A stretch of DNA of 64,000 nucleotides from a candidate division WOR-3 bacterium (GTDB taxonomy: Bacteria > Hydrothermota > UBA3072). A model generated the notes under the pieces. The model was not told the DNA's origin. It did not search any database and was given only the letters and a program-made list of their open reading frames with translations. Shown here in pieces: positions 19,330-36,049 of this stretch. Made by a program: the position numbers and the translations under genes. The stretch is taken from NCBI GenBank assembly GCA_039804165.1, contig JBDRZZ010000006.1, positions 1 to 64,000 of the forward strand. The letters are read 5' to 3'. Every line of letters begins with the position of its first letter. Position 1 is the first letter of the stretch.

Positions 19330-20559
19330 TTATTTTTTCTCCAAGATTACTTCTATTATCCGGTTTCTTCTTATTTTTCTTATAATAAAGTTTGCTTCTT
19401 TGTGTTGGAGTCTCATTGAAGCCTTTGGCTCTACTCCGAAATAAGAAAGAATCCAATCTCCAAGAGCTTTTTCTGGTTCGGGTAAATTCATATTTAACAA
19501 CTTATTTATTTCTTCTATCTTAACGCCACCTCCAATATTGTAACGATTTTCAGTTATTTTGTATAAGTAAGACGGCATTACATCATATTCATCTTCAATT
19601 TCTCCTACTATCTCTTCAATAATATCTTCTAAGGTTACAAGGCCAAGGACTTTTCCTTCTTGAGATTCAACAATAGCAATATGCTGGCGAGAAGCGGTCA
19701 TTTTTCTAAAAGCTTCTCCATAGCTTTCTATAGGAGAAAACTTCATTATGGGTCGTTTTATGCCAACTACTGAGGGATCATGAGGATTTATTTTTAAAGC
19801 GCTAATTATGTCTTTAAAATTAACATAACCAATAACCTTGAAAGCTTCCGTGCTATCATCAATTAGAGGATACCTTGTGTGATTGTGAATGTGAGCTTCT
19901 ATTAGAGCTTCAGATAAAGACATACTTGACCTTAGGACTTTCATATCTTTTGCTGGAATCATAATATCCTGTACCTTTTTCTTTGAAACATCAATTGTTC
20001 TTGAGATAATTTGTTCTTGATCCTTGGTTATTGTTTTTGTTATATATGCATAATTAGCCAAGGCAGATAATTCATCTATGGTTTTTAGTTTAGAAGTTTC
20101 TGTGCTTTTCCCAACAAAGGGTCTGTTTAAGAGTTCAATAAACCAAACCATTGGAGAGAATATGCGAATTGTCAGTTCAAGAGGATAGACAATTAAAAGG
20201 GCAATTTTTTTATTATACTTAACCCCCAAGGTTTTTGGCAATATTTCTGTCCATTGAATCATTGCAAAGGAATAAAGAATAGAGAAAATTAGGATCCATT
20301 TCCCACCAAAAACTTTATTAAACTGAGCCCCAGCCAAAGAAGCTCCTATGGTGTGAGCAAAAGTGTTTACAATTAAAATTACAGCTATTGGCTTTTGGAT
20401 ATTATCTTTGAAGGTACTTAGGATAAAAGCAGGTTTTGGCCTTTTAATAGACATCTCTCCAATTGCTGCTCTTGAGATGCTGAGTAAACAGGATTCAAAA
20501 ATAGAGCATAGAAGAGAGATTGACATACTGAAAAAAATTACTAAGAGTAATATCACCAT
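19330..20559 (-). CDS. CNNM/CorC/HlyC family membrane protein (DUF21-CBS-CorC_HlyC)
   Basis: 409 residues in three parts. First is an N-terminal DUF21 membrane domain with about four helices (residues 1-150, beginning MVILLLVIFFSMSISLL). Next is a CBS pair around residues 200-320 (VQDIMIPAKDMKVL; VLGLVTLEDIIEEIVGEIEDE). Last is a small C-terminal CorC_HlyC domain (IGGGVKIEEINKLL). Homologues are linked to magnesium or cobalt efflux and were first named for haemolysis. A transport role in the inner membrane is inferred. It has its own promoter upstream, and the sugar isomerase follows with no gap. Confidence 0.88.
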   Translation of the reverse strand: MVILLLVIFFSMSISLLCSIFESCLLSISRAAIGEMSIKRPKPAFILSTFKDNIQKPIAVILIVNTFAHTIGASLAGAQFNKVFGGKWILIFSILYSFAMIQWTEILPKTLGVKYNKKIALLIVYPLELTIRIFSPMVWFIELLNRPFVGKSTETSKLKTIDELSALANYAYITKTITKDQEQIISRTIDVSKKKVQDIMIPAKDMKVLRSSMSLSEALIEAHIHNHTRYPLIDDSTEAFKVIGYVNFKDIISALKINPHDPSVVGIKRPIMKFSPIESYGEAFRKMTASRQHIAIVESQEGKVLGLVTLEDIIEEIVGEIEDEYDVMPSYLYKITENRYNIGGGVKIEEINKLLNMNLPEPEKALGDWILSYFGVEPKASMRLQHKEANFIIRKIRRNRIIEVILEKK

Positions 20560-20653
20560 AAGAATCCTCCTCTTAACTTTTAAAGAAAAGATATATTTTT
20601 AAGATTGTCTTATCAAAAGATAGAAAAAATTCATCAATTTGCATTTTGTTTTT

Positions 20654-20682
20654 ATTGTAAAAAATTTTTATTTCTTTGTCAA
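20654..20682 (-). promoter_or_regulatory. sigma-70-type promoter of the CorC-like gene
   Basis: Minus strand TTGACA (20677-20682), 17-nt spacer, TACAAT (20654-20659), in the gap after feoB and 95 nt before the start. Confidence 0.65.
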
Positions 20683-20695
20683 GGCTTTTATTTTT

Positions 20696-22414
20696 TTAAT
20701 AAATCAAGTTTAGAATCCACCCAACAAAAAAAGCAGAAAAGAGCATTATAATTGTAGCTTTAAGTGTATCTAATGGTCCCAATTCTTTAAGTAAAACCAC
20801 AAAAGTTGCTACACAAGGGAAATACATAGTTAGGATCGTAGAAGCTGTGATCAATTGGCCTTTAGATAAGCCTAAGGGTGCAAGCATACCAACTGCTAAA
20901 TCTTTTCTTAGAAATCCAATAAATAAAGCCAATATAGCCTCTGAAGGAAGCCCTAAAAATTTTGTGAGAATTGGACTAAAAACTCTTGATAAGAAATTCA
21001 TTACTCCAAAATTATGGAATAAATTAACAATAACAACCCCAATTAGAACAAAAGGGAGGGCTTCCTTAGAAAAGGAACTAATTCGCAACCAAAGTTTTTC
21101 TAGAAGAGTATTTAAATGTGGAACCCTATATGGAGGTATTTCTATGAAGATCTCTGGGCTTTCTCCCCTAACAAACCTTGCCATAAGTTTTCCAACTATA
21201 ACCCATACAAGAAATAATGAGAGGAAAACTGGACTAATTCCTCCTATTCCATATTTACCTAAAAGTCCAAATATCATTGCGGTTTGAGCCATACAAGGTA
21301 TTGAAATTGACATAAGAGTTATGGCGATGAATCTTTCTTTTCTTGTTTCCATAATTCTTGTTGCTAAGACTCCCGGAACATTGCAACCGCAGGCAAGAAA
21401 CATAGGAATAACACCCAATCCATGAATACCAATTTGATGCATAAAATGGTCCAAAAGGACGGCTAATCTTGGGAGATATCCGGTATCTTCAAGAATACAA
21501 AGGATTAAATAGAAACTGAAAATGTAAGGAAAAACATTAGCTATTGAGATGTATAACCCGGTGGAGAGCAAACCAAAGGATTGAGAAAAATCAATTTTTC
21601 CGTTGATTAATTCCCCAATAAAAATTCTATGGAGGAAGCTATAGCTTCCTAAAGCTTTTGAGATTTTTAATAATAGAGGAGCCCATAGATTCTCAAATAT
21701 TGGTTCAAAAACAAAATTAATTAGACTCTCTCCAATTAACCTAACAACCGCGAAAGAAAAAAGCAAAATTAGAATTCCAAGAGCCAATCCTCCTATTGGG
21801 TGAATTGATAGCCCTTCTAAAACCTGAAGGAAAGTGTGGTGGTGATGTGTTATCGCTTGGGTTTTTTTAGTAATTTCTCCAATTAAGTTCCATATATCCT
21901 CACTTTTTACATTGAATTTAGAAGGCTTTGCAGTTTTAATTTTTTCTCTTAGCTCTTTGATGCCAAAGCCTGTCACCGCCACAGTAGGGATCACTTGCAC
22001 ATCCAAAAGCTCGCTTAGTTTCTTAATATCAATGGTTATCCCTTTGTGGTGAACTTCATCCCAGAAGTTAAGAAGAACAATAACTGGAAATTCGGTAGAT
22101 AATAATTGGATTGTTAGATAAAGATTTCTTTCTAAATTTGTCGAATCAACAACATTTAAAATCAAGGTGTCTTTTGGGGAGGACTCTTCCAATATTTTCT
22201 TTGCAACTTCTTCAGCAGGAGAACTTGGATCAAGAGAATAGGTTCCTGGTGTATCAATAACTTCAATATATTCTCCATTTAATCGGATTTTTCCTCTTAG
22301 ATATTCTACAGTGGTCCCTGGATAGTTTGAAATGATTACTTTCACTCCAGTAAGTCTACTGAATATAACACTTTTACCAACGTTTGGATTCCCAAACAAG
22401 AGAATTTTCTTCAT
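20696..22414 (-). CDS. feoB: ferrous iron transporter FeoB
   Basis: Inner-membrane Fe2+ uptake GTPase. The N-terminal G domain shows GNPNVGKS (G1), DTPGTYSL (G3) and an N-x-x-D in LLNFWDEV (G4). The membrane part carries the Gate motif with the conserved cysteine (LACGCNVPGVLATR) and a second Gate repeat. At 572 residues it is shorter than the usual 650-770, mainly because the linker and helical GDI-like segment are compact. It overlaps feoA by 4 nt and completes the dtxR-feoA-feoB operon. Confidence 0.93.
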   Translation of the reverse strand: MKKILLFGNPNVGKSVIFSRLTGVKVIISNYPGTTVEYLRGKIRLNGEYIEVIDTPGTYSLDPSSPAEEVAKKILEESSPKDTLILNVVDSTNLERNLYLTIQLLSTEFPVIVLLNFWDEVHHKGITIDIKKLSELLDVQVIPTVAVTGFGIKELREKIKTAKPSKFNVKSEDIWNLIGEITKKTQAITHHHHTFLQVLEGLSIHPIGGLALGILILLFSFAVVRLIGESLINFVFEPIFENLWAPLLLKISKALGSYSFLHRIFIGELINGKIDFSQSFGLLSTGLYISIANVFPYIFSFYLILCILEDTGYLPRLAVLLDHFMHQIGIHGLGVIPMFLACGCNVPGVLATRIMETRKERFIAITLMSISIPCMAQTAMIFGLLGKYGIGGISPVFLSLFLVWVIVGKLMARFVRGESPEIFIEIPPYRVPHLNTLLEKLWLRISSFSKEALPFVLIGVVIVNLFHNFGVMNFLSRVFSPILTKFLGLPSEAILALFIGFLRKDLAVGMLAPLGLSKGQLITASTILTMYFPCVATFVVLLKELGPLDTLKATIIMLFSAFFVGWILNLIY

Positions 22415-22662
22415 TTTTCTACCTCTTCTACGATAACAGCGCTTGCCATTCCTCTACCAATGGCAACTTCACAGTTTCCAATTTTGATTATAATAGGTCC
22501 AGAAAATGGTTGGGCAGAAACCTTTTTTATAATAACCCCCTCTCTTATTCCCATACAATTAAGTTTCTTTACTAAACCTAAGCATCTTCCTTTGCCTTTC
22601 TGAATAGAAATAACTTTAAGAGGAACATCCTTTTTTGCTTCAATAAGGGTAACTATTTTCAC
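22411..22662 (-). CDS. feoA: ferrous iron transport protein FeoA
   Basis: 83-residue SH3-like partner of FeoB, with the family pattern GKGRCLGLVKKLNCMGIREG then GPIIIKIGNCEVAIGRGMA. The GTG start at 22662 lies inside the 3' end of the regulator gene (23-nt overlap) and directly abuts AAAGGAG with no spacing. Translation is probably coupled to the upstream gene, and the exact start is uncertain. Confidence 0.88.
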   Translation of the reverse strand: MKIVTLIEAKKDVPLKVISIQKGKGRCLGLVKKLNCMGIREGVIIKKVSAQPFSGPIIIKIGNCEVAIGRGMASAVIVEEVEK

Positions 22663-23044
22663 CTCCTTTAGTTTTTAAGAAAAAATCCATTCTGTTTAGG
22701 GTCTCTTTTGAAAGAACGTGCTCCATTTTGCAGGCATCTCTTTCTGCTGTTTTCTCATTCACTTTTAATATATTCATTAAGAATTCTTTTATTATTTGGT
22801 GCTTCTTTGAAATGGCTTTGCCTGTTTTGTTTCCTTCTTTTGTTAGTTCTATAAATCCATATTTTTTATGTTTTATAAGGCCGGCTTTCTCTAACATAGT
22901 TAAAGCATAATTTACGCTTGGTAGAGAAACACCCATCCTTAAGGCAATGTCTTTTACTCTTGCAACTTTCTCCTTTTTGCAAATCTCGCATATAACTTCA
23001 AGATAATCTTCTCTGCTTCCAGTTAACCCCATTTTATCCTCCAT
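22640..23044 (-). CDS. DtxR/MntR-family metal-dependent repressor
   Basis: 134 residues. An N-terminal winged helix (SREDYLEVICEIC; VARVKDIALRMGVSLPSVNYAL) is followed by the dimer and metal-binding helices (LTKEGNKTGKAISKKHQIIKEFL, with ENVL-like ERDACKMEHVLSKET). It lacks the C-terminal SH3 domain, but feoA encodes one right behind it. First gene of the feo operon; a palindrome overlaps its promoter, so it is likely autoregulated by Fe2+. Confidence 0.9.
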   Translation of the reverse strand: MEDKMGLTGSREDYLEVICEICKKEKVARVKDIALRMGVSLPSVNYALTMLEKAGLIKHKKYGFIELTKEGNKTGKAISKKHQIIKEFLMNILKVNEKTAERDACKMEHVLSKETLNRMDFFLKTKGGENSYPY

Positions 23045-23047
23045 AAG

Positions 23048-23061
23048 TTAGATATATCTAA
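23048..23061. promoter_or_regulatory. DtxR-type operator
   Basis: TTAGATATATCTAA is a perfect 14-bp palindrome lying between the -10 element and the regulator's start codon. It resembles MntR/IdeR-type boxes, which open with TTAG and close with CTAA. Confidence 0.7.
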
Positions 23062-23062
23062 T

Positions 23063-23090
23063 ATTATAAGAGATATTTATCTTTTGTCAA
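23063..23090 (-). promoter_or_regulatory. sigma-70-type promoter of the iron-uptake operon
   Basis: Minus strand TTGACA (23085-23090), 16-nt spacer, TATAAT (23063-23068), a near-consensus promoter followed at once by the operator palindrome. Confidence 0.75.
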
Positions 23091-23193
23091 GAGTTTTATT
23101 GGAGTTTCTTTGCGGAAATCCCTTTTATAAAGAATATTTTATGAAGAATGAAGATAATAAAAAATTTTTAAAAGAGATTGGTGAAAGATGTTT

Positions 23194-24327
23194 TTAAAGC
23201 AATCTTTTTTCTCCTTCTATATTCTTTATTTCTGTAATGTCATGTGTTACTTCCAAAGTCCCAAGATACTTTTCATTTCTACGAACAGCAAAATACCGAA
23301 TGTGAATAAGGCGTCCTCTCATATTTATCCAGAATTCTGCCACATCTCTTTTATTGTTTTTAAAATCTCTGAGGATCTCCTCTACTTTGTGTAGGCTCTG
23401 AGGGGGATGGCATAATTGGACTTTTCTGCCAATAACCGCTTTTCCTCTTGGGAAGATTCTTTCTTTTGCTTGATTGAAATATCGGACAGTATCGTTTTTA
23501 TCTACAAAAGTGATATCAATTGGTAAAGTATTTAAAACCGATTCCAGTTCTTCGAGGGAAAAACTTCCTGTTTCAAATTCTATTAGTTTTTCAGATCCTT
23601 TTGTGAGCTTTTTAGCTTCAACTTTTTCTGTTGGAATATTAATAATCTTTGGAGTAAAACAGCAATAACCTATTTCTGTAAATTGTGTTTCTATATCTTT
23701 CCATTCATCTTCCTTTATAATATTTAATGCTGTTGGGAAAAGAATGTTGTTTTCCTTATAGAAATGACTCATAAGTTTATCGCCGAGAGCAAAAGTTATA
23801 TCTTTAAGCTTCTTGATATAATCTTCCTGTTTTATCTTTTTCTCTTCTTCAATTATAGAATAAAGCTCTTTTTCATTTACTCTTATTTCATTATGCTCAG
23901 CCCACATAACTTTAGGTGGTTCTGTAATTCCATGTTTCTCAATGTAAGGGAATAAAACATTCTCTTCCCGAAGATAGTGTTTCTCCGAATCTTTGAAATG
24001 TTCAACAATGTTATGGAATTCTTTATTAAGTAAGCGGTGATCTTTAACATTATTTGCTCTCTCTATTATATTCTTTAGGTCTTCTACGAATCTCAAAATT
24101 ATTTTGTGCTCTTCCATAAGGATTTGTATTGGATGACCTTCAGGAACTAAAATATTCTGTTTGTCCAAATATTCTTTAAAAATTTTTAAATGGATATCAC
24201 ATAATCGCTGAATTTCCTCTAAGGATATCCCTTCTTTTATTAGTTCTTCTTCAATTGAAGTAATCTCTTCGACACTTAAATCCTTAAGAATTCCCCTAAA
24301 TTTTTCTTTTGCAATTTCTGGGTCCAT
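23194..24327 (-). CDS. DUF438/hemerythrin-like/PAS domain protein
   Basis: 377 residues read in one frame. The parts are a DUF438 segment (residues about 1-70, SVEEITSIEEELIKEGIS), an HHE hemerythrin-like four-helix region with His and Glu ligands (EEHKIILRF, EHFKDSEKHYLREENVLFP, HFYKENNILFP), and a PAS domain of the DUF438 type (residues about 250-370, NTLPIDITFVDKND; CHPPQSLHKVEEILR). Such proteins are thought to sense oxygen, NO or redox state and are common in anaerobes. The natural start is probably 24401: ATG with AGGAGG begins MSELFGEKKDK, but one A missing from an A-run breaks the frame. Function is inferred from domains. Confidence 0.85.
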   Translation of the reverse strand: MDPEIAKEKFRGILKDLSVEEITSIEEELIKEGISLEEIQRLCDIHLKIFKEYLDKQNILVPEGHPIQILMEEHKIILRFVEDLKNIIERANNVKDHRLLNKEFHNIVEHFKDSEKHYLREENVLFPYIEKHGITEPPKVMWAEHNEIRVNEKELYSIIEEEKKIKQEDYIKKLKDITFALGDKLMSHFYKENNILFPTALNIIKEDEWKDIETQFTEIGYCCFTPKIINIPTEKVEAKKLTKGSEKLIEFETGSFSLEELESVLNTLPIDITFVDKNDTVRYFNQAKERIFPRGKAVIGRKVQLCHPPQSLHKVEEILRDFKNNKRDVAEFWINMRGRLIHIRYFAVRRNEKYLGTLEVTHDITEIKNIEGEKRLL

Positions 24328-24401
24328 TCCTTTGTGTATCTTTTTTATAAGTTCTTTTATAAGATTTTTTTATCCTTTTTTTCTCCGAATAATTCACTCA
24401 T
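24328..24401 (-). other. frameshifted 5' end of the DUF438 gene
   Basis: ATG at 24401, behind AAAGGAGG, encodes MSELFGEKKDKK and stops after ILs frame. The other frame continues NLIKELIKKIHKGMDPE into the main gene. The switch point is a run of seven A on the minus strand (seven T at 24365-24371). Eight would restore one reading frame of about 402 codons. Confidence 0.7.
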
Positions 24402-24469
24402 TTTTCCTCCTTTTTACTTTCTTCTCTTATATTGACCTCTTTGAGAGACTCTATTCATTTTCCATGCTG

Positions 24470-25402
24470 TCAAATTTTTGAAAAAAGAGTTCCTAAGCAT
24501 AATGCGAGGATGCTGATGATTGTTAAATATGTAAGGAGAATTTTAATTCCAAACTCTTTTCTTAAAACGAGGAGAGTTCCCCAACTTGTGACTGGCCCTA
24601 CAATGAGTAAGACCATCCCTGCTCCAATATTCATTCCTTGAGAAATGAAGGCATGAACTAAGGGGACACTCCCAGTAGCACATATATACATTACAACTCC
24701 AAAGACAAGGCTAAATAGATACCCAAAAACACCTCCAAAGTAATCTTCAATGAATTTCCCAATAGGAGTGATTATAACTATAAGTGCTGCGAGAGCTAAC
24801 CCTAAGAGTAATTCTGGGCCAATTTCTTTCGGTAAATCTACGAAAGAATGTCTGAAAACACATTTTAATCTTTGGTTGAACTTTCTTGGAGGAATCTCCC
24901 TTTTAGAGTTAGTCTCAATTTTTTCCTCACAATGAGCACAGGAAGGATTAGAAGCCAAAGTCAGGTTTTGAGAAGAGAGGTCTCTATTTTTGACGTCAAT
25001 AAGGTTCCCAAATAGGCCTATCACCAAACTAATTATTATAACGGCGAAGAATATAAAGACGGCAAATTTTATCCCAAGAAGAGCATAGGTTACCAAAAGG
25101 GCGGGTATAGAAGTAGCTGGGGTTGCCACCAGAAACGCTAAAATTGGACCCAACTTTACCCCCTTCTTGTGCAAGCTAACTGCTACCGGAAGAGAACCAA
25201 AACAACAAAGGGGAAGAATTACTCCTGAGAGGGTGAGGTAAATTATGGGTCTTATTCTCTTACCACCAAGAGTCTTTTCTACCCATCCTTGGGGTATGAA
25301 TTCGTGAATTATCCCACTCAATAAAAATCCTACTCCAACAGATGGTAAGACCTCAATAAAATAATCTTTAAACGCCATAAGAAATTTAATTATTATCTCC
25401 AT
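24470..25402 (-). CDS. permease of the ArsP/SO_0444 family
   Basis: 310 residues with eight or so transmembrane helices in two related halves. The paired signatures are CCFGSLPVAVSLHKKGV (first half) and CATGSVPLVHAFISQGM followed by GMVLLIVGPVTSWGT (second half). A soluble loop between them holds CAHCEEK, a possible metal-binding pair. Relatives export organoarsenicals or copper/zinc; the substrate here is unknown. It has its own GGAG ribosome site and lies 57 nt after iscU on the same strand. Confidence 0.83.
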   Translation of the reverse strand: MEIIIKFLMAFKDYFIEVLPSVGVGFLLSGIIHEFIPQGWVEKTLGGKRIRPIIYLTLSGVILPLCCFGSLPVAVSLHKKGVKLGPILAFLVATPATSIPALLVTYALLGIKFAVFIFFAVIIISLVIGLFGNLIDVKNRDLSSQNLTLASNPSCAHCEEKIETNSKREIPPRKFNQRLKCVFRHSFVDLPKEIGPELLLGLALAALIVIITPIGKFIEDYFGGVFGYLFSLVFGVVMYICATGSVPLVHAFISQGMNIGAGMVLLIVGPVTSWGTLLVLRKEFGIKILLTYLTIISILALCLGTLFSKI

Positions 25403-25459
25403 CTATATTTTCTCCTTTTTTAAAGGTTTGATTCAACATTTTTGTTTTTATCCATTTTT

Positions 25460-25858
25460 CTAATTATGCTCGGTTCTTGGAGGATCTTTTTTGATTTTCT
25501 TAAAGTAATCATTAATTGCAGCCTTAATCCCTTCTTCAGCTAAAAGAGAGCAATGCATTTTTATAGGAGGTAGTCCGCCTAGTTCTTCTGCCACATCTTT
25601 GTTTGTAACTTTAAGAGCTTCTTCAATTGTTTTCCCCTTTACAAGTTCAGTCACCATTGAAGATGTAGCTATTGCCGCACCACAACCAAAGGTTTTGAAT
25701 TTAATATCTGTAATTATATTATCTTTTACTTTTATATAAATCGTCATTAGATCCCCACAGACAGGGTTTCCAACCTGACCAACTCCATCTGCATCCGGAA
25801 TCTCTCCCATATTTCTCGGATTCATAAAATGTTCCATTACTTTTTCTGAATAAACCAT
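25460..25858 (-). CDS. iscU: Fe-S cluster scaffold IscU/NifU N-terminal type
   Basis: 132 residues. It assembles Fe-S clusters from sulfur supplied by the cysteine desulfurase encoded 5 nt upstream. The three cluster cysteines are present: VCGDLMTIY, FGCGAAIATSS and MHCSLLAEE. There is no C-terminal NifU domain. The C-terminal tail is short and charged. Last gene of the nifS-iscU pair in the sulfur operon. Confidence 0.93.
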   Translation of the reverse strand: MVYSEKVMEHFMNPRNMGEIPDADGVGQVGNPVCGDLMTIYIKVKDNIITDIKFKTFGCGAAIATSSMVTELVKGKTIEEALKVTNKDVAEELGGLPPIKMHCSLLAEEGIKAAINDYFKKIKKDPPRTEHN

Positions 25859-25863
25859 TTTCC

Positions 25864-27027
25864 CTATCTTTTTGGATAAAGCGGTGACATTTTTCTCATT
25901 TTATCCACAATTGGAGGTAAAACCTCTAAAACCTTATCCACCTCTTCTTCAGTATTTTCTCTTCCGAAACTGAATCGCAGTGAGCCGTGAGCAATCTCAG
26001 GAGGAATTCCCATAGCGGTTAAAACATGGGATGGTTCGAGGGAAGCTGAGGTGCAGGCAGAGCCACTCGAGGCTGCTATTCCATAGTAATCTAACTGTAA
26101 TAACATTGACTCTCCTTCTACATATTTAACGCACAGATTCAAAGTTCCCTCTAATCTTTTTTCAGGATGACCATTTATTATTATCTCATCAATTAGTTCA
26201 AGAAGACCTTTTTCGAGCTTATCTCTTAATTTTTTTATTTCGACTCTTTTATCGATTTCTTCCAAAGCGATTTCTGCTGCAACTCCAAGACCAACAATTC
26301 CGGGAACATTTTCTGTTCCTGCCCTTTTATTTCTTTCTTGATGACCACCATGGAGTAGGGAATCAATTTTTATCCCTTTTTTTATGTAAAGAGCTCCAAC
26401 GCCTTTTGGTCCGTACAATTTATGGGCGGAGAGTGATAAGAGATCCACCCCTAAATCTTCCACATCAATAGGAATTTTCCCTACAGTCTGAACAGCATCA
26501 GTATGAAAGTAAATATTTCGTTCTTTTGCAATTTTAGCTATCTCTTTTATCGGTTGAATTGTTCCTACTTCATTATTTGCATGCATAATGGAGATTAAGA
26601 TTGTCTTATCTTTTATAGTATCTTTCAATTCATCCAAATCAACAATTCCATATTTGTCTACCCCAATGTAACTAACCTCAAAACCTTGTTTTTCAAGCCA
26701 CTTGAATGTATTAAGAACCGCAGGATGTTCTATTTTTGAAGTTATGAGATGATTTCCACGGTCTTTGTTTGCAAAAGAGATTCCCTTAATTGCAAAATTA
26801 TCAGATTCTGTGCCTGATCCTGTAAAAAATATCTCATAGGGTTTTGCATTTATAAGAGCTGCGACTTTCTCCCTGGCTTTTTCTTTCGCAAGTTCGGATT
26901 CCTTGGCAAGTCTATATATACTTGAAGGATTTCCATATTTTTCCGAAAAATAAGGGAACATTGCAAGAAGGACTCTTTTATCTACAGGGGTTGTTGCGTT
27001 ATGATCAAGGTAAATTAGTTTTCCCAT
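25864..27027 (-). CDS. nifS: cysteine desulfurase, NifS type
   Basis: PLP enzyme that strips sulfur from cysteine and hands a persulfide to IscU. The 387-residue class V aminotransferase fold shows LDHNATTPVD at the N-terminus, the PLP lysine in LSAHKLYGPKG and the catalytic cysteine loop SSGSACTSASLEPSHVL. ATG at 27027 lies inside the 3' end of the small upstream gene (23-nt overlap), pointing to coupled translation. With a Rrf2 regulator in the same operon it is probably under Fe-S feedback. Confidence 0.95.
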   Translation of the reverse strand: MGKLIYLDHNATTPVDKRVLLAMFPYFSEKYGNPSSIYRLAKESELAKEKAREKVAALINAKPYEIFFTGSGTESDNFAIKGISFANKDRGNHLITSKIEHPAVLNTFKWLEKQGFEVSYIGVDKYGIVDLDELKDTIKDKTILISIMHANNEVGTIQPIKEIAKIAKERNIYFHTDAVQTVGKIPIDVEDLGVDLLSLSAHKLYGPKGVGALYIKKGIKIDSLLHGGHQERNKRAGTENVPGIVGLGVAAEIALEEIDKRVEIKKLRDKLEKGLLELIDEIIINGHPEKRLEGTLNLCVKYVEGESMLLQLDYYGIAASSGSACTSASLEPSHVLTAMGIPPEIAHGSLRFSFGRENTEEEVDKVLEVLPPIVDKMRKMSPLYPKR

Positions 27028-27178
27028 CTTTTAGCCTCCCGTACTTCTTTTCTTCTATTTTAAGATAATTTCTATCCTTAAATTCCTCTTTCTTTCCAAC
27101 ATTCCATCCCTCAACGGGTCTAAAATAACCAACAATTCTTGAATAAACCTCTGTTTTAACTGCAATTATTTTTTTCAT
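27005..27178 (-). CDS. 57-residue protein related to the glycyl-radical tail of anaerobic ribonucleotide reductase
   Basis: ATG at 27178 follows AAAGGAGG at good spacing. The product has VYSRIVGYFRPVEGWNVG followed by KKEEFKDRNYL. This matches the C-terminal tail of class III ribonucleotide reductase (NrdD), where R-x-x-GY holds the radical glycine and W-N-x-GK-x-EF-x-DR follows. The zinc-ribbon cysteines and the catalytic barrel are absent. It could be a spare-part radical protein in the manner of GrcA, or a repurposed fragment. No nrdD lies in the window. It overlaps the nifS start by 23 nt. Confidence 0.7.
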   Translation of the reverse strand: MKKIIAVKTEVYSRIVGYFRPVEGWNVGKKEEFKDRNYLKIEEKKYGRLKDGKTNLP

Positions 27179-27195
27179 TCAATCCTCCTTTGAGG

Positions 27196-28950
<1,755 letters not shown>

Positions 28951-28954
<4 letters not shown>

Positions 28955-30585
28955 CTTTCTTCCTCCAGAGATTCAAAGAAAACTGGCCAGAAGGGATCTT
29001 GAGTTGGAATCTTTAAGGGTTCGATTTCTCCTTTTATTCTTTTTATAAACCGCTTTCTGGTATTCTCAGTTACCTTCCCTATAATAGAAGCTTTTATCCC
29101 TTCTTTCTTTAAATTTAAAATAATTCTATCTGAATGGGTAGGGTTGGAAGTGATGATTAGTGATCCCTCTGAGATTGCATAGAGGGGGTCAATCCCGAAT
29201 GCTTTACAAACTGTCTTGACCTCTTCCGGATATATGAACTTTGTTTCATCTATCTCCATTCCGACAGCACTTGCATTTGCAATTTCAAAAAGTCCTCCGA
29301 TAATCCCTCCTTCTGTTGCATCATGCATCGCGGTAACCTCACCTGATTTCATAGCTGTTAATGCATCTTTTACCACTGAGATCTCCTTTGATAGTTTTTG
29401 TGCTTTTTTAACAATAGATGTTCCATATTTCTTAATTAATTCTTTTTCTCTTAGAATAGATAAAATACCAACCGCTTCTATAGCAGGTCCTTTCGTGAGG
29501 ATAATATCGTCTCCAGGTTTTGCTCCTTTTGAGGTTACATATTTCCCTTTTTTAGCAAAACTAAAGACAGTAATTCCGCCAACTGTTGGAGAAGCAAATC
29601 CCGGATAAAATCCAGTATGTCCTCCAATAATCGCTATTCCAAGAGAACTTGCAGTTTTATGAATTGAATTCACGATAGTCTTGAAATCTTCTTCAGGAGT
29701 TTCTGGAGGCATTATTAATGTATAACTCATAAATTCAGGTTTTACTCCCATAACAGCCACATCACTTGCTCCAATATGTACAGTGTACCAACCATACATC
29801 TCTAATGGTTGCCCAGGAATAGAGAATATTGGATCTTCTGCTATGATTAAAACTTTATCTTCATCGATTTCAATAACAGCTGCATTCACGCCAGTTAGAG
29901 GTGGAACGATGACTCTTTTATCTTTCTTCCCCAACCTTTTTAAGAGATAGGTTTCAAAAGTCTTTAGGTCGATTTTACCTACTTTTAACTTCCTCTGTGA
30001 TTTCTTAAAATAAGCTCTTGCGAGGGAACAAATTTCTTCTGCCACTTCTATTGGGTCCTTACCAACTAAAACCGTTACTTCCTCTTTTCCCAGAGCACCC
30101 GTTTCATAGAAAACCCTTGGGACTTTTCCGCCAGTAGACTCAACAGCCATTTTTATTTTCCAAGACATAGAAGCCATTTCTGGCCTTCTCACATCTTCTG
30201 GTTCCAAAGAGCGGTCTATTTTACCTAAAATCCAGTCTTTCTTAACACTATAATCTTGTAGGAATTTTACTATTTTCTCATTACAGGCAAAATTTATTCC
30301 TGCGCGAATGGAAGGTTCATATTTGTTTATTTCAAGAATTAATCTTGCCATGTGACTAGAAGCTCCAAATTTCAAATTACCTGAGGCTCTTGGTTTACCA
30401 TTTACAATTGTAATTCTTCCATCTATTCCAAGGACATCTTCAACTCTTTTCGCATCTTTCTTTGCATATACTAAATTTGTTCTAACTTCGGGTATAAAAG
30501 AGGCAAACTCTTTACAATTTTCAATTTCGCTTAGAGCTATGCTCATTTTGCCGAATAACTCAATCTCTTCTGCCCTATTCTTCAT
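28951..30585 (-). CDS. fusion of a ThiN-like domain and an AIR-synthase-related (HypE/SelD/ThiL superfamily) domain
   Basis: 544 residues. Residues about 1-200 carry the ThiN thiamine-phosphate-synthase-like pattern: FIPEVRTNLVYAKKDA, GRITIVNGKPRASG, LKFGASSHMARLIL, SLEPEDVRRPEMASMSW. Residues about 225-530 form a PurM/HypE-type ATP-binding domain with AAVIEIDEDKVLIIAEDP, GASDVAVMGVKPE, IIGGHTGFYPGFASPTVGG and AMHDATEGGIIGGLFE. That superfamily phosphorylates carbonyl, amide or selenide groups. Start 30585 has GGAGG upstream. The operon between cysK and the Fe-S regulator suggests sulfur or cofactor metabolism. The reaction is unknown. Confidence 0.8.
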
Positions 30586-30599
30586 AAGTTCCTCCAATA

Positions 30600-31523
30600 T
30601 TAATCCTCAAAAAGGTTTGTGCTTAAATATCTTTCTCCGTGATCTGGGAGAATAACAACTACTTTCTTCCCTTCCCCCAATCTCTTAGCTACCTTTAAAC
30701 CTCCCCAAAGAGCAGCTCCTGAAGAGATTCCTGCGAAAATTCCCTCCTTTCTTGCAAGTAATTTAGCCATCTCAAAAGCGTCTTTGTTGCTTACCTGGAT
30801 TATTTCGTCATAAATCTTCGTATTCAAAACTTTAGGAACAAATCCGGCACCAATACCTTGAATTTTATGTGGACCCGGCTTTCCGCCGGAAAGGACAGGC
30901 GAATCCAGAGGTTCGACTCCGATAATCAGGATCTCTCTCTTTTTTATTTCTTTCCGGAGAATCTCGCCCACACCAGTTATAGTCCCACCCGTGCCGATGC
31001 CTGCAACAAAAGCGTCTAGATCTGGAATCTGTTCTAAAATCTCTCTTGCTGTCGTTTTTCTGTGAATTTCGGGATTCGCAGGATTATTAAACTGCTGAGG
31101 TTGAAACCATCCGTGTTTCTCTGCTAATTCCTGGGCTTTTTCTACAGCCCCCTTCATTCCTTTCTCGCCAGGAGTAAGTATAATCTCTGCTCCAAAAGCC
31201 TTCATTATTTTTCTCCTCTCTACACTCATTGTCTCTGGCATTGTGAGCACCAATTTATATCCCTTAAAAGCCGAGACAAAAGCAAGTCCTATTCCTGTAT
31301 TACCACTTGTAGGCTCAATTATGGTATCCCCCGGCTTTATTTTTCCTTCTTTTTCTGCGGCCTCTATCATACTGAGAGCAATTCTGTCTTTTATAGAACC
31401 TAAAGGATTAAATCCTTCTAACTTGCAATATACATCAGCAGAATCCTTCTTAACTAACCTACTTAATTTCACGATAGGTGTATCACCTATCAATTCTAAA
31501 ATACTGTTCACAACTTTACCCAT
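30600..31523 (-). CDS. cysK: cysteine synthase (O-acetylserine sulfhydrylase)
   Basis: PLP enzyme making cysteine from O-acetylserine and sulfide. At 307 residues it is full length: [17 protein letters not shown], the PLP lysine in [22 protein letters not shown], and [15 protein letters not shown]. Start 31523 is set by GGAGG six nt upstream; in-frame codons further up would lie inside the promoter. First gene of the sulfur/Fe-S operon. Its product is the substrate of the NifS encoded downstream. Confidence 0.96.
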
Positions 31524-31543
31524 TTTTAACCTCCTAATTAATA

Positions 31544-31578
31544 TTATAACTAATATCATAGTTTTAGTGATATTATAA
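31544..31578. promoter_or_regulatory. imperfect palindrome at the cysK promoter (candidate Rrf2 operator)
   Basis: TTATAACTAATATCA (31544-31558) and TGATATTATAA (31568-31578) are near-complementary arms that cover the -10 region and the likely transcription start. The operon encodes its own Rrf2 regulator. Confidence 0.45.
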
Positions 31579-31598
31579 CAAAAAATTTAATTTGTCAA
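31572..31598 (-). promoter_or_regulatory. sigma-70-type promoter of the sulfur/Fe-S operon
   Basis: Minus strand TTGACA (31593-31598) with TATAAT 15 nt downstream (31572-31577). An overlapping TAATAT gives the standard 17-nt spacing. Confidence 0.65.
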
Positions 31599-31737
31599 GG
31601 GGGGATTTTGTTTAAAATTTAAAAGGCTTTTTAAATTATTAGGTCTCCTTGGGAAAAAGATTAAAATATTAATTTGTTTTTTAATCTTAGCAAAATTTTT
31701 AAAGAAAAGATAGGTTGGATAAAGAAATCTTCTCGAT

Positions 31738-32205
31738 TTAATTTTTTTTATTTTGATTTTTAGAGAAAAACTCTTCTATTTTTTTTATTGCTTCTTTTGG
31801 AGAGTTAGCCTTTTCTATTGGGATTGGAAGATCGCATTTTATCCCTATTATTTTTTTATCATATATCTTAGCGAAAGCAATTTCGCTTTGTGTCCCTAAG
31901 GCTCCGTCGATTGCTATTAAAATATCGGCGGTTTGGACAATGATTACGTTCCTTGCATGTCCCATTCCTGTAAGTATTGGGATGTCTACCCATCTATTAG
32001 CTGATTCTTTTGAGCTTCCTGGTAGGATTCCAATAACTAATCCTCCCTCTTCTTTAGCTCCTTTTGAAGCTGCTTCCATAACTCCTCCTAATCCCCCAGT
32101 GACTAAAGCGTAGCCCTTTCCCCCAATTAGCTTTCCCATTTCGTAGGCTATATTATAAATTTCTTCTGTAACCTTAGAGCCGCCAATAACACCGACAATT
32201 TTCAT
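31738..32205 (-). CDS. TIGR00725/LOG-like nucleotide-binding protein
   Basis: 155 residues with a Rossmann fold of the lysine-decarboxylase-like (LOG/YvdD) superfamily. It has VIGGSKVTEEIYNIAY, YALVTGGLGGVMEAASKGA, MGHARNVIIVQTADILIAI and the GALGTQSEIAFA loop in place of the usual PGG-x-GT-x-x-E motif. Relatives hydrolyse nucleotide monophosphates to bases or have no known role. The start overlaps the C25 peptidase stop by 4 nt, so it is translationally coupled to it. Confidence 0.8.
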   Translation of the reverse strand: MKIVGVIGGSKVTEEIYNIAYEMGKLIGGKGYALVTGGLGGVMEAASKGAKEEGGLVIGILPGSSKESANRWVDIPILTGMGHARNVIIVQTADILIAIDGALGTQSEIAFAKIYDKKIIGIKCDLPIPIEKANSPKEAIKKIEEFFSKNQNKKN

Positions 32206-35200
32206 CTTACTACCGCTATTTTACCGTAATAAGGCTCGGTATTTCCTGCTTTTATCATATAATAATAAACTCCATTAGAAACGGGTCTTCCTAATTTATC
32301 TTTTCCATCCCATTCTACATAATTAATCCCATATTTTGAGACTCCAGGATAAATTTCTTTAACCAGTCTTCCAGCTATCGTAAAGATTTTTATTTCAACA
32401 GGCACTTCCTGAGATGTATTATAAACGATTATTGTTTTATCCTTCATTGGATTTGGATAATTGTTTACGTTCCAAAGAATTTCTTTTCTCCCAACTTTAA
32501 AGCTCGTTTCGCAAGAACCAATGTTTCCAGAGTTGTCCTTAGCATAAACTTTAATTTTAATAGAATCAGAGAGAGAGGGAGCTTCATAGGCAAAAGAAAC
32601 TTCTCCTATAGTGCAGGTTCCTGTTAAATAAGTAAATTTATCTCCAAGGAGAAGTTTTGAAGTTCCGCCAACGTTGACTTGGATATTGGTTTTGTCTCGT
32701 AAGTCAATTCCACTGGAATCGCTTATAATAAGAGTCATCTCCCCTGAAGGAGGAATCAAATCTCCTTTTTTAAGAACCCTACCTTCCAATTGGAAAGAGA
32801 TAGAAGGTGGTAGTGTATCTAGGGAAGGGAGGCCTTCTTTAAAATATATTCTTGAGGAGAAATATGATTCTTTTTCTCCTCTTGAATAGAAACGGATTCT
32901 TCCAGAATCTGCTTTTATGTCATAAGGGAGGTTCATTTTTATCACAAAAGAATCGTTCACTATTGGTGCACTACCTCTAAATAATATTCTTCCTTCTTTT
33001 CTTACTTTAATCATTAAAGTGCCACTTCCTTCGCTTCCGTCTATTAATGTATCATAGCTTCCCTCTGTTAGAAGACAGGAAATCTTTTCTGCTGAATTTT
33101 TACATTCTCCTTTTATTTCTATAGAAGAGCCTGTTTTAAAAGTATCATTTAGGGAAACAGTTAACGGAGCTGAATCAATCAATATAGAAGTTCCGGGATC
33201 TCCGAAGAATGTGTAGGTTGAATGTCCTCCCTTTTCTTTTGCAAAAAGGAAAGCCTCTCCTGCAGTTTTTACAGAATCGTTAAAAAGATACTCGATTATC
33301 CTTTCTCCCAAGTATGTATTATCAGGGTTTCCTGTAGCTCTTCCTGCAGCAATTGTTACGATGGTTCCCCCCTCTTTATAAAGAACAGAATAATCCCCAA
33401 TGCTACGCTCATCCGGTCTTTCAAAGTAACCAACATCACAAGAGCCAAAATAATAGATTGGGGTTTTTCTCCAATTAGAAAGTAGGTTTATGTCTTGAAT
33501 TAGAAAAACTCCTTCGTGGGCTAAACCTCTTAAGTTTCCATGCCCAATATACATTCCAACAAGAGCTCCTTCTTTCATTGACTCAATGTGAGCTTTCCTG
33601 GCGGAAGGTTTTAATCCTGCCTCTCTTGGATATTCTATTAAATATATTTTATCTTTATAAATCCACCCTGGAAGTTTTCTTGCAATACTTTCCATACCGT
33701 CAGTATTCTCTCTTTCAGCACTACTTGTAGCAGAAAATGCATCATCAGCGAGAAGAATAGCTTTCATTCTCCAATTACCCGAACTTTTCTCATATTCTAT
33801 TAACTTATCTACCCATCCTTTAGCTTCTTGTAAGTTAGAAGCTGTGACTCTCCCAATAGGTATATCTGGGACTTGTCTTGGGTCTTCGTTAAAATTTACA
33901 AACCAGCTATCCCAAGAAGGATTTGAAGTTAAATAACCCTCTTTCTGAGAAACCGTGATACCTTCTGTATGAATAGGAATGAAGGATGTCTTCCCATTCC
34001 CTGTTAAATTTTTGTCATCGTAACTACCATTTCCGAAAAGCAAAACATAATTAGGAGGTGGATTCCAATTTAATTGCGTCCAATATAAGAATCTTTTTAT
34101 GGCGGAAGGATCTTTAACCCCATAAGAAAAATTATCATAAATTTCTTCAATTTTTACAACCTTTGCTATAGGAGAAGAAAAGCCTCTTAAATTACTCTCT
34201 CTCCAATTTTTTAATTTTAGAGCTTCAGAGAAAAAGGTTTCTGGGGTTATGACAATCCAATCTGCTCCACCCTGGAATAGGGAGGTTGGATTTGATATGG
34301 ATATTTCTTCTATAGAAAAAGGAGAGCTTTGTAAAAGAACTCTACTTGAGGCAGAAGAAAAATTCACAGTTCCATTTTCGAAATCAGAAGAAATTAGTTT
34401 CGGAGAGCTTTCTTTACTAATGTCAAGCACATAAGGATTTCTTAAGAATCCTTCTACTCGGTAATTTCTTAAAGAAGAATCCTGTTTTATAATTAAAAAA
34501 TCTTCTTTCCCGATTGTTTTTCTTTTATAAATAATTTCTATATAATCTAAAATTATAGATCTCTCACTACTTCTAAGAGAAACACTTAACTCGTTTATTC
34601 CTGAGTGGAGGTTTTCTAATGTATCTATAAAAATTGTCCTATCAGTTTTAGGGTCTCCAAAACAAGGAACTGTTTTAAGAGATGTTTCTCCATTTAAAGA
34701 GATCTCCAAATCAGTGTTTTTATTCTCCTTAGGATAGAAAGCTACAAATATTATTGCTTTAGAGTCAAGGGGGTCTTGGGGAATAAAGGTTGTTATTAAT
34801 TTGCTATTTTCACTTTCTAAGTTTTCTCCAATCACATTTAATTCTTTCCAACCCCAGGTAAGTCCACTTTTTAAAGGACTAAAAACATCTTCTTCAAGAT
34901 GGATGGTATCAATAAAGAAAGAAGATTCTTCTCCTCCAACTTGAGAAACTTGATTCATTTTTAAGGCTTCTTTGTTAAAGCGGAGCCAGTAAATATTTGT
35001 GTCTGTGTAAGGGTGATAATAGAAAAACACTTTAGAAGTAAACCTATTCCTTTTCCAACCCGAAAGAGAATGAGCATAAAATATGATTCTCTCCCATGGT
35101 TCAAAAGTTTCGTCTTCATCGATCTCATATATGGTAGGAAGGACTTCTGGAAGAGTGTCCATTGCTAAAAGGCTATCCAAATTCCATTTCATAACCTTTT

Positions 35201-35888
35201 TATATCCACCAAGAATTTGAATCTTTTTCGGATCCACTCTTAATGGATTAATGCCAACTTTTTCTAAATCTTTTGGGGTAACTTCATATAAGCCTTCTTT
35301 TAGTGTTTTTAATTTTAAGTAAAGGGAGGGTTCTTCTCTTATTTTATAGATAGAAGGTATTATTGCTTCTCCTTTTTGTTTATTTAAAAAAATGCTAAGT
35401 TTTCTTGCTTGATAGCCCCTTGGTTTAATCCATTTTCCTCCTCTAAAATAAATTTTAATTAAAATTAATTTCCTTTCCTCTATTTTTTCTCCATCAAAAG
35501 AAAAAGGATTTATGATTAAAGTAGAATTTCCAAAGGGAGAAGGGGTATTTTCTTCTATCGCAACAGGAGGTAAAATGTAGGGAGGAGGAGTTTTTTCTAT
35601 TTCCTCTCCGAAGTAAGATAAAACTCTTGGGATCCCTTTCTCTTTTTGAGATTCTAATACTTTGTATTTTAATTCTATTTCGCATCCAACTGGAGTTAAA
35701 ATTGACCTTCTTATAGAAGGTAACTCAGCCACTCCTTCTTCTATAGGGTAAAAGTTTCCTTCTTTTAGTTTATAGGAAATTCTACCTGAGATTAGAAATT
35801 TTTCATATTCTAAGGTATATTTAATAATTAAAGAATCTGGGGTATCTGCAATAATATTTATGGCAGAAAATAAAAAAAACAAAATCAT
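32202..35888 (-). CDS. secreted C25-family (gingipain/PorU-like) cysteine peptidase with C-terminal sorting domain
   Basis: 1228 residues. A signal peptide ([14 protein letters not shown]) leads. The central peptidase C25 domain (about residues 550-910) has the His of [15 protein letters not shown] and the Cys of [16 protein letters not shown], the expected dyad. Beta-sandwich modules follow. The last roughly 80 residues ([49 protein letters not shown]) form a FlgD-like/type IX sorting domain. It is a candidate sortase (PorU) or exported protease. Its ATG overlaps the upstream Trm112-like stop. Confidence 0.85.
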
Positions 35889-36049
35889 AATTTTTCTGCT
35901 TCCTCAATTAGCATTACAGGAATTCCATCTTCAATTGGATATGCAAGTTTACATTTGTCGCAGATTAGCCTTTCTTTTTTTTCATCCAACCTTAATGAAC
36001 CTTTACATTTAGGGCAAACAAGGATATCCAATAATTCTTTTTTTATCAT
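35885..36049 (-). CDS. Trm112-family small zinc-ribbon protein
   Basis: 54 residues, begun by ATG at 36049 behind AAAAGGAGG. It has [17 protein letters not shown], then [19 protein letters not shown], with two Cys-x2-Cys knuckles as in the Trm112/YcaR family. Such proteins activate methyltransferases in eukaryotes and archaea; bacterial partners are mostly unknown. Its TGA overlaps the ATG of the C25 peptidase gene. Confidence 0.87.

Follow-up and report, generated by a model that had tools for sequence, protein, structure and literature searches.

What is the role of a protein that joins a ThiN-type thiamine phosphate (TMP) synthase domain to a domain of the PurM/HypE/SelD/ThiL superfamily (AIRS), and whose gene lies among genes for cysteine and Fe-S metabolism? 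The question is posed by an open reading frame in the window, the stretch of 64,000 nucleotides of a candidate division WOR-3 contig that was analysed here (Table 1). An earlier note on this DNA had read the frame as a ThiN-like N-terminus followed by a PurM/HypE/SelD/ThiL-type remainder, and a Pfam search bore this out: ThiN scored 170 bits (gathering threshold 25), AIRS_C 88 and AIRS 59, all well above cut-off, the AIRS halves covering residues 234-337 and 356-513. Translation starts at the ATG at 30585, which has a good ribosome-binding site (GGAGG) on its 5' side and lies 14 nt past the cysK stop. In the AlphaFold2 model (pLDDT 94) the predicted ThiN part has the fold of PDB 2pb9 (1.4 Å rmsd, 30% identity), and the predicted AIRS part is closest to structures of HypE (TM 0.84), ThiL (up to 0.78), SelD (0.73) and PurM (0.69).

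Table 1. Window positions of the fusion gene, its domains and the surrounding operon.
Feature	Positions	Strand	Evidence
ThiN-AIRS fusion gene, 544 aa	28951..30585	-	ORF list, Pfam, start site
ThiN (thiamine-phosphate synthase) domain, residues 14-186	30028..30546	-	PF10120, E 4e-50; fold match 2pb9, TM 0.93
AIRS (PurM/HypE/SelD/ThiL superfamily) domain, residues 200-544 (start approximate)	28954..29988	-	PF00586 and PF02769; family alignment A3
Asn234 codon AAT	29884..29886	-	all 113 other family members that have a residue at this position carry Asp
cysK, directly upstream of the fusion, same operon	30600..31559	-	TIGR01139 above cut-off
Rrf2-family regulator (CymR/IscR-like), 4-nt overlap with the fusion	28502..28954	-	PF02082 and TIGR00738 above cut-off
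O-acetylhomoserine sulfhydrylase (metY type)	27196..28524	-	TIGR01326 above cut-off
nifS cysteine desulfurase	25864..27027	-	TIGR03402 above cut-off
iscU/nifU scaffold	25460..25858	-	TIGR03419 above cut-off

The operon runs cysK - fusion - Rrf2 - metY - nifS - iscU on the minus strand. The cysK product is cysteine synthase A (460 bits, above cut-off), and the stop of the fusion overlaps the ATG of the regulator gene within the sequence ATGA (28951-28954). The position and overlap described in the earlier note therefore stand, but its "IscR" does not: the regulator matches the Rrf2 superfamily model (143 bits, above cut-off), and the CymR and IscR equivalog models only below theirs. The downstream nifS and iscU genes are present as described, with the O-acetylhomoserine sulfhydrylase gene, which the note had left out, in between. 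As far as tested, it was also right that the window holds no other thiamine gene; in this genome ThiE and Thi4 are encoded on contig C2, ThiC on C20 and ThiL on C9, the fusion being on C6. No Rfam match was obtained at positions 20000-36000 with E up to 1 and no TPP riboswitch was found in the genome, so that control of the operon by a TPP riboswitch or another RNA was rejected. A "predicted permease" of the ArsP type (PF03773) is encoded at 24470-25402, and recurs in or near Rrf2/AIRS/CysK clusters elsewhere (L109, L110, L111, L115, L122 and L124), which suggests that it serves the same regulon, concerned with sulfur or metals. A DUF438-hemerythrin-PAS protein is encoded at 23194-24327, downstream of the iscU and permease genes.

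The ThiN domain carries both R57 and H78. In the ThiN of Pyrobaculum calidifontis, R320 and H341 are reportedly essential; they are likewise 21 residues apart, and we take them to be the counterparts of R57 and H78. The two residues are among 35 columns that are invariant across the ten ThiN domains of the closest relatives (alignment A1), and both are kept in 58 of the 59 ThiN sequences of the wider survey. Among 53 ThiC-positive relatives, ThiN occurs in six of the eight without ThiE as against four of the 45 with it; in the phylum set (147 genomes), ThiE is absent from 20 of the 25 genomes with ThiN. As the genomes are related to one another, p-values for this pattern overstate its significance. 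Taken together, this inverse distribution and the intact ThiN features indicate that in the phylum ThiN very likely functions as a TMP synthase, and we have high confidence that the domain in the fusion would be active as such. As the genome of the window also encodes ThiE, ThiN would there be a second TMP synthase and not an obligatory one. In an AIRS-ThiN fusion of Methanofrustulum (L200:2774-4375) the ThiN half is degenerate (68 bits, with the His replaced by Tyr, as judged by eye), suggesting that a fusion can persist after its ThiN part has ceased to be catalytic.

The AIRS domain, judged by its sequence, is a distinct and unnamed family of the PurM superfamily. Its scores lie below the NCBIfam cut-offs of HypE (TIGR02124, 115.5 bits against 252), ThiL (TIGR01379, 103.6 against a curated 184), SelD (TIGR00476, 86.3 against 125) and PurM (TIGR00878, 29.3 against 236); on these scores and on motifs, membership of HypE, PurM and SelD was rejected. 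The family has its own invariants across 115 relatives (window numbering): G203-K204, D234, D251-P252, S274-D275, G322-H323-T324, T364-K365, E370, M420-H-D-A-T-E425, E473-G474 and D530-x-F532-W533. Some 40 positions, including all acidic and motif residues of the superfamily type, are nearly invariant in archaea and bacteria alike. Only the window protein has Asn at position 234, which may be either a genuine loss, possibly of a residue that binds metal, or an error of sequencing or assembly.

It is very improbable that the protein combines a TMP synthase with a TMP kinase belonging to the known ThiL family. ThiL does belong to the same superfamily, and a profile-profile alignment of the two families extends over 304 columns (probability 99.8), but a separate ThiL above cut-off is encoded elsewhere in the genome and the ThiL motifs GDD, VEGxHF, GGDT, SDGL and GGEDFEL are absent from the aligned AIRS domain, which has GVN, DPIF, HDATEGG and SEG at the places of GDD, VEGxHF, SDGL and GGEDFEL. 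Just as improbable is a HypE-type hydrogenase maturation protein or PurM-type AIR synthase that merely adjoins ThiN: HypE gives the best PDB matches in both fold and sequence, yet the protein ends in EER and thus lacks the C-terminal Cys of HypE, the genome has a separate HypE beside hypD, and the genes found near the family are those of thiamine and not of hydrogenase or purine metabolism. "Uncharacterised enzyme", one of the options of the earlier note, is an apt description of the AIRS domain, to judge from the literature and profile libraries searched. Full-text searches found no paper on a ThiN-AIRS fusion, mostly owing to the collision of "ThiN" with "thin", and an earlier mention is possible. 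A survey of archaeal fusions mentions thiamin fusions in no detail (PMC11237513).

The gene neighbourhood of the family was surveyed in GTDB representatives. At least 574 AIRS relatives were detected, and the best 80 were fetched and examined by name; these are the closest to the window's protein and may therefore favour ThiN partners. Neighbours were labelled by profile and sequence searches at thresholds set by us, and a sample was verified with Pfam; most of the genomes are metagenome-assembled, so that absences are soft. A thiamine gene on the same strand is fused to AIRS or no more than 300 nt from it in 69 of these best 80 loci, the partner being mostly ThiN and otherwise ThiE, ThiD, TenA, ThiC or a thiamine-binding protein (PF01910). 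There is a strong decay with distance (76 thiamine genes within 1.5 kb, four beyond). Among the 115 rows of the family, the partner is ThiN in 59, ThiE in 17, the thiamine-binding protein in nine and another thiamine gene in two, while 17 loci have solely Fe-S or cysteine genes as neighbours. Most ThiN/AIRS pairs overlap or are separated by a few nucleotides, and either gene may come first. Within the phylum, all AIRS relatives above 500 bits are fused to ThiN or directly beside it; more distant ones have ThiN or ThiE as a neighbour or belong to Rrf2/NifS/IscU/NadA/TrmU/CysE/CysK clusters. In the fusions of the window, of a genome of the same family (G003), of Jordarchaeia, Archaeoglobus and Methanomassiliicoccus, ThiN precedes AIRS, whereas it follows AIRS in those of Moorella, Truepera and Clostridia, among other bacteria; as both orders exist, the fusion arose more than once.

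Several loci show further variation. The PF01910 gene lies directly before AIRS at L156, L159, L168, L172, L174, L176, L177, L180-L182, L198 and L199, and is sometimes itself preceded by thiE. In Moorella and in a Clostridia MAG, the AIRS-ThiN fusions (L185:1467-5306 and L197:5971-11917) lie beside genes of the IF-2B and nucleoside phosphorylase families, probably a methylthioribose-1-phosphate isomerase and an enzyme of methylthioadenosine salvage, respectively. A gene that looks by eye like selD is located just downstream of AIRS in genome G032 (L045:208-1161). When loci L008 and L010 are set against L012 and L013 of the same genus, ThiN is seen to have kept its two flanking genes in unchanged order, with the AIRS gene missing from between them. 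The two genes can thus separate, G049 having a distant AIRS gene at 19 kb.

On a FastTree phylogeny of the 115 rows, partnership with ThiN changes 13 times, at least seven of the changes being forced by starred branches, and partnership with ThiE nine times, at least six of them forced. The strongest case for the AIRS family acting together with TMP formation is made by this repeated swapping of partner, ThiN and ThiE being unrelated TMP synthases. Supported in this way by gene neighbours across phyla, a place for the AIRS domain in thiamine metabolism is highly probable, and the bifunctional thiamine protein that the earlier note offered as one option has gained strong support. The nearest AIRS domains among the best 80 of the at least 574 are those of Jordarchaeia (71-72%), Aminicenantes (68%) and Archaeoglobus (67%), plus that of G003, and together with these the window's domain falls in a clade of 26 rows (support 99). 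Neither the single further genome of the genus nor, G003 excepted, any genome of the family in the set was found to have ThiN. The fusion was likely acquired by lateral transfer from archaea, to judge from these relationships. Another WOR-3 sequence (L184) groups in the same 115-row tree with the phylum members G011, G033 and G037.

The operon of the window also invites a different explanation, in which a SelD- or HypE-like AIRS enzyme would spend ATP to activate the sulfur that NifS delivers, for use in thiazole or other thio-cofactors, and the linkage to ThiN and ThiE would reflect a shared cofactor pathway. NifS, IscU, TrmU, NadA, CysK, CysE and Rrf2 are recurrent neighbours, the loci with Fe-S and cysteine genes only are of this kind, and both the GGHT motif and the invariant Lys204, which aligns with the N-terminal KIS region of SelD, recall a selenium-activating enzyme. 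Yet no row of alignment A3 has a Cys before Lys204, where SelD carries its catalytic Cys or Sec three residues ahead of the Lys; AIRS also occurs in thiD-thiE-thiM-thiL-tenA and thiE-thiD-tenA operons, which are salvage-like and need no sulfur; and it is fused to the condensing enzyme, which acts after the thiazole has been formed. The link to NifS, IscU and CysK is real and keeps the sulfur reading alive, but we consider it improbable, and a sulfur or selenium role is weaker than the thiamine role with which the earlier note had ranked it equal.

The step carried out within thiamine metabolism is harder to name. Phosphorylation of TMP is the simplest proposal, as the domain belongs to the superfamily of ThiL and is fused to the enzyme that would make TMP. 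Canonical ThiL is, however, present in 38 of 50 genomes with AIRS (40 if split hits are counted), thiamine pyrophosphokinase (TPK) was found in all eight of the clearest AIRS genomes without ThiL, and within the phylum the presence of AIRS is independent of that of ThiL (p 0.52), with no complementation. One operon of Truepera, thiD-thiE-thiM-thiL-tenA-AIRS/ThiN, holds ThiL and AIRS-ThiN together. As ThiL or TPK usually coexists with AIRS, a plain TMP kinase would be redundant and TMP phosphorylation is unproven as its step. A general replacement of ThiL by AIRS was rejected, for hardly any of the genomes tested lacks both ThiL and TPK. Dependence of AIRS on a single thiazole route was also unsupported: Thi4 is present in the window's genome, and several AIRS/ThiE and AIRS/ThiN genomes, including G003, are without a detected Thi4.

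Coexistence with ThiL or TPK, neither of which is replaced, would also suit a regulatory or non-catalytic partner that binds ATP and TMP or TPP and tunes the output of the TMP synthase, or acts as a sensor. The pairing with a thiamine-binding protein and the Asn in place of a metal-ligand-type Asp in the window copy point the same way; against it, the 40 or so near-invariant positions suggest catalysis in the family as a whole, and a purely regulatory role is in our view unlikely.

We thus lean, with some reserve, towards a bifunctional protein of the thiamine pathway. Its ThiN domain would condense HMP-PP with thiazole phosphate to TMP, and its AIRS domain would be an ATP-dependent enzyme that partners TMP synthases of either type (ThiN or ThiE), its substrate being TMP or a compound removed from it by a single step. 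Phosphorylation of TMP or a TMP precursor is the step we tentatively favour, a TMP kinase in the strict sense being possible but doubtful. It is conceivable, at similar strength, that the family is an undescribed and widespread class of thiamine enzyme with another step, partnering whichever of ThiN and ThiE the organism has; tentative examples are the activation of sulfur and the activation or repair, driven by ATP, of an intermediate such as a thiazole, a formyl-pyrimidine or ring-opened thiamine. Our expectation is thus shared about evenly between TMP kinase and another ATP-dependent thiamine-related step, with sulfur activation or a regulatory role taking the rest. Intermediates may be channelled between the two domains, and the gene would be co-expressed with those for cysteine and for Fe-S and sulfur mobilisation, presumably under Rrf2 control. 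Counting against this bifunctional reading are the absent ThiL motifs, the 17 loci with Fe-S or cysteine neighbours only, the genome's own ThiE, and Asn234.

Nearly all of thiamine synthesis is regarded as assigned. A conserved and presumably ATP-using family with at least 574 relatives in bacteria and archaea, which is linked to two unrelated types of TMP synthase, is repeatedly fused to one of them and yet coexists with canonical ThiL or TPK, suggests that the present picture lacks a step or a point of control, and a step of vitamin B1 metabolism or of its control probably remains undescribed.

Among known systems, ThiL (TIGR01379; PDB 3c9t, 5cc8) shares with the AIRS family the superfamily, the fold and the thiamine gene context; the AIRS family differs in scoring below the ThiL cut-off, in coexisting with real ThiL and in a signature of its own (GK, GVD, DP, SD, GGHT, TK, MHDATE, SEG, DPFW). 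HypE (TIGR02124; PDB 2z1e, 3vys) is the best match in fold and profile, whereas the AIRS family has GGHT in place of GDT and neither the C-terminal Cys nor hyp neighbours. With SelD (TIGR00476; PDB 3u0o, 2yye) it has in common the N-terminal KIS/Lys region, the GGH motif and, at some loci, the neighbourhood of NifS, but it is without the catalytic Cys/Sec, scores below cut-off and has thiamine genes as neighbours. The other half of the fusion resembles the ThiN of the Pyrococcus ThiD-ThiN protein (PDB 2pb9) and of MJ0236 (PDB 2php) in its PF10120 score above cut-off, its fold, the R57/H78 pair and the partial replacement of ThiE; where archaeal-type ThiN is joined to ThiD or a DNA-binding domain, its partner here is an enzyme of the AIRS superfamily.
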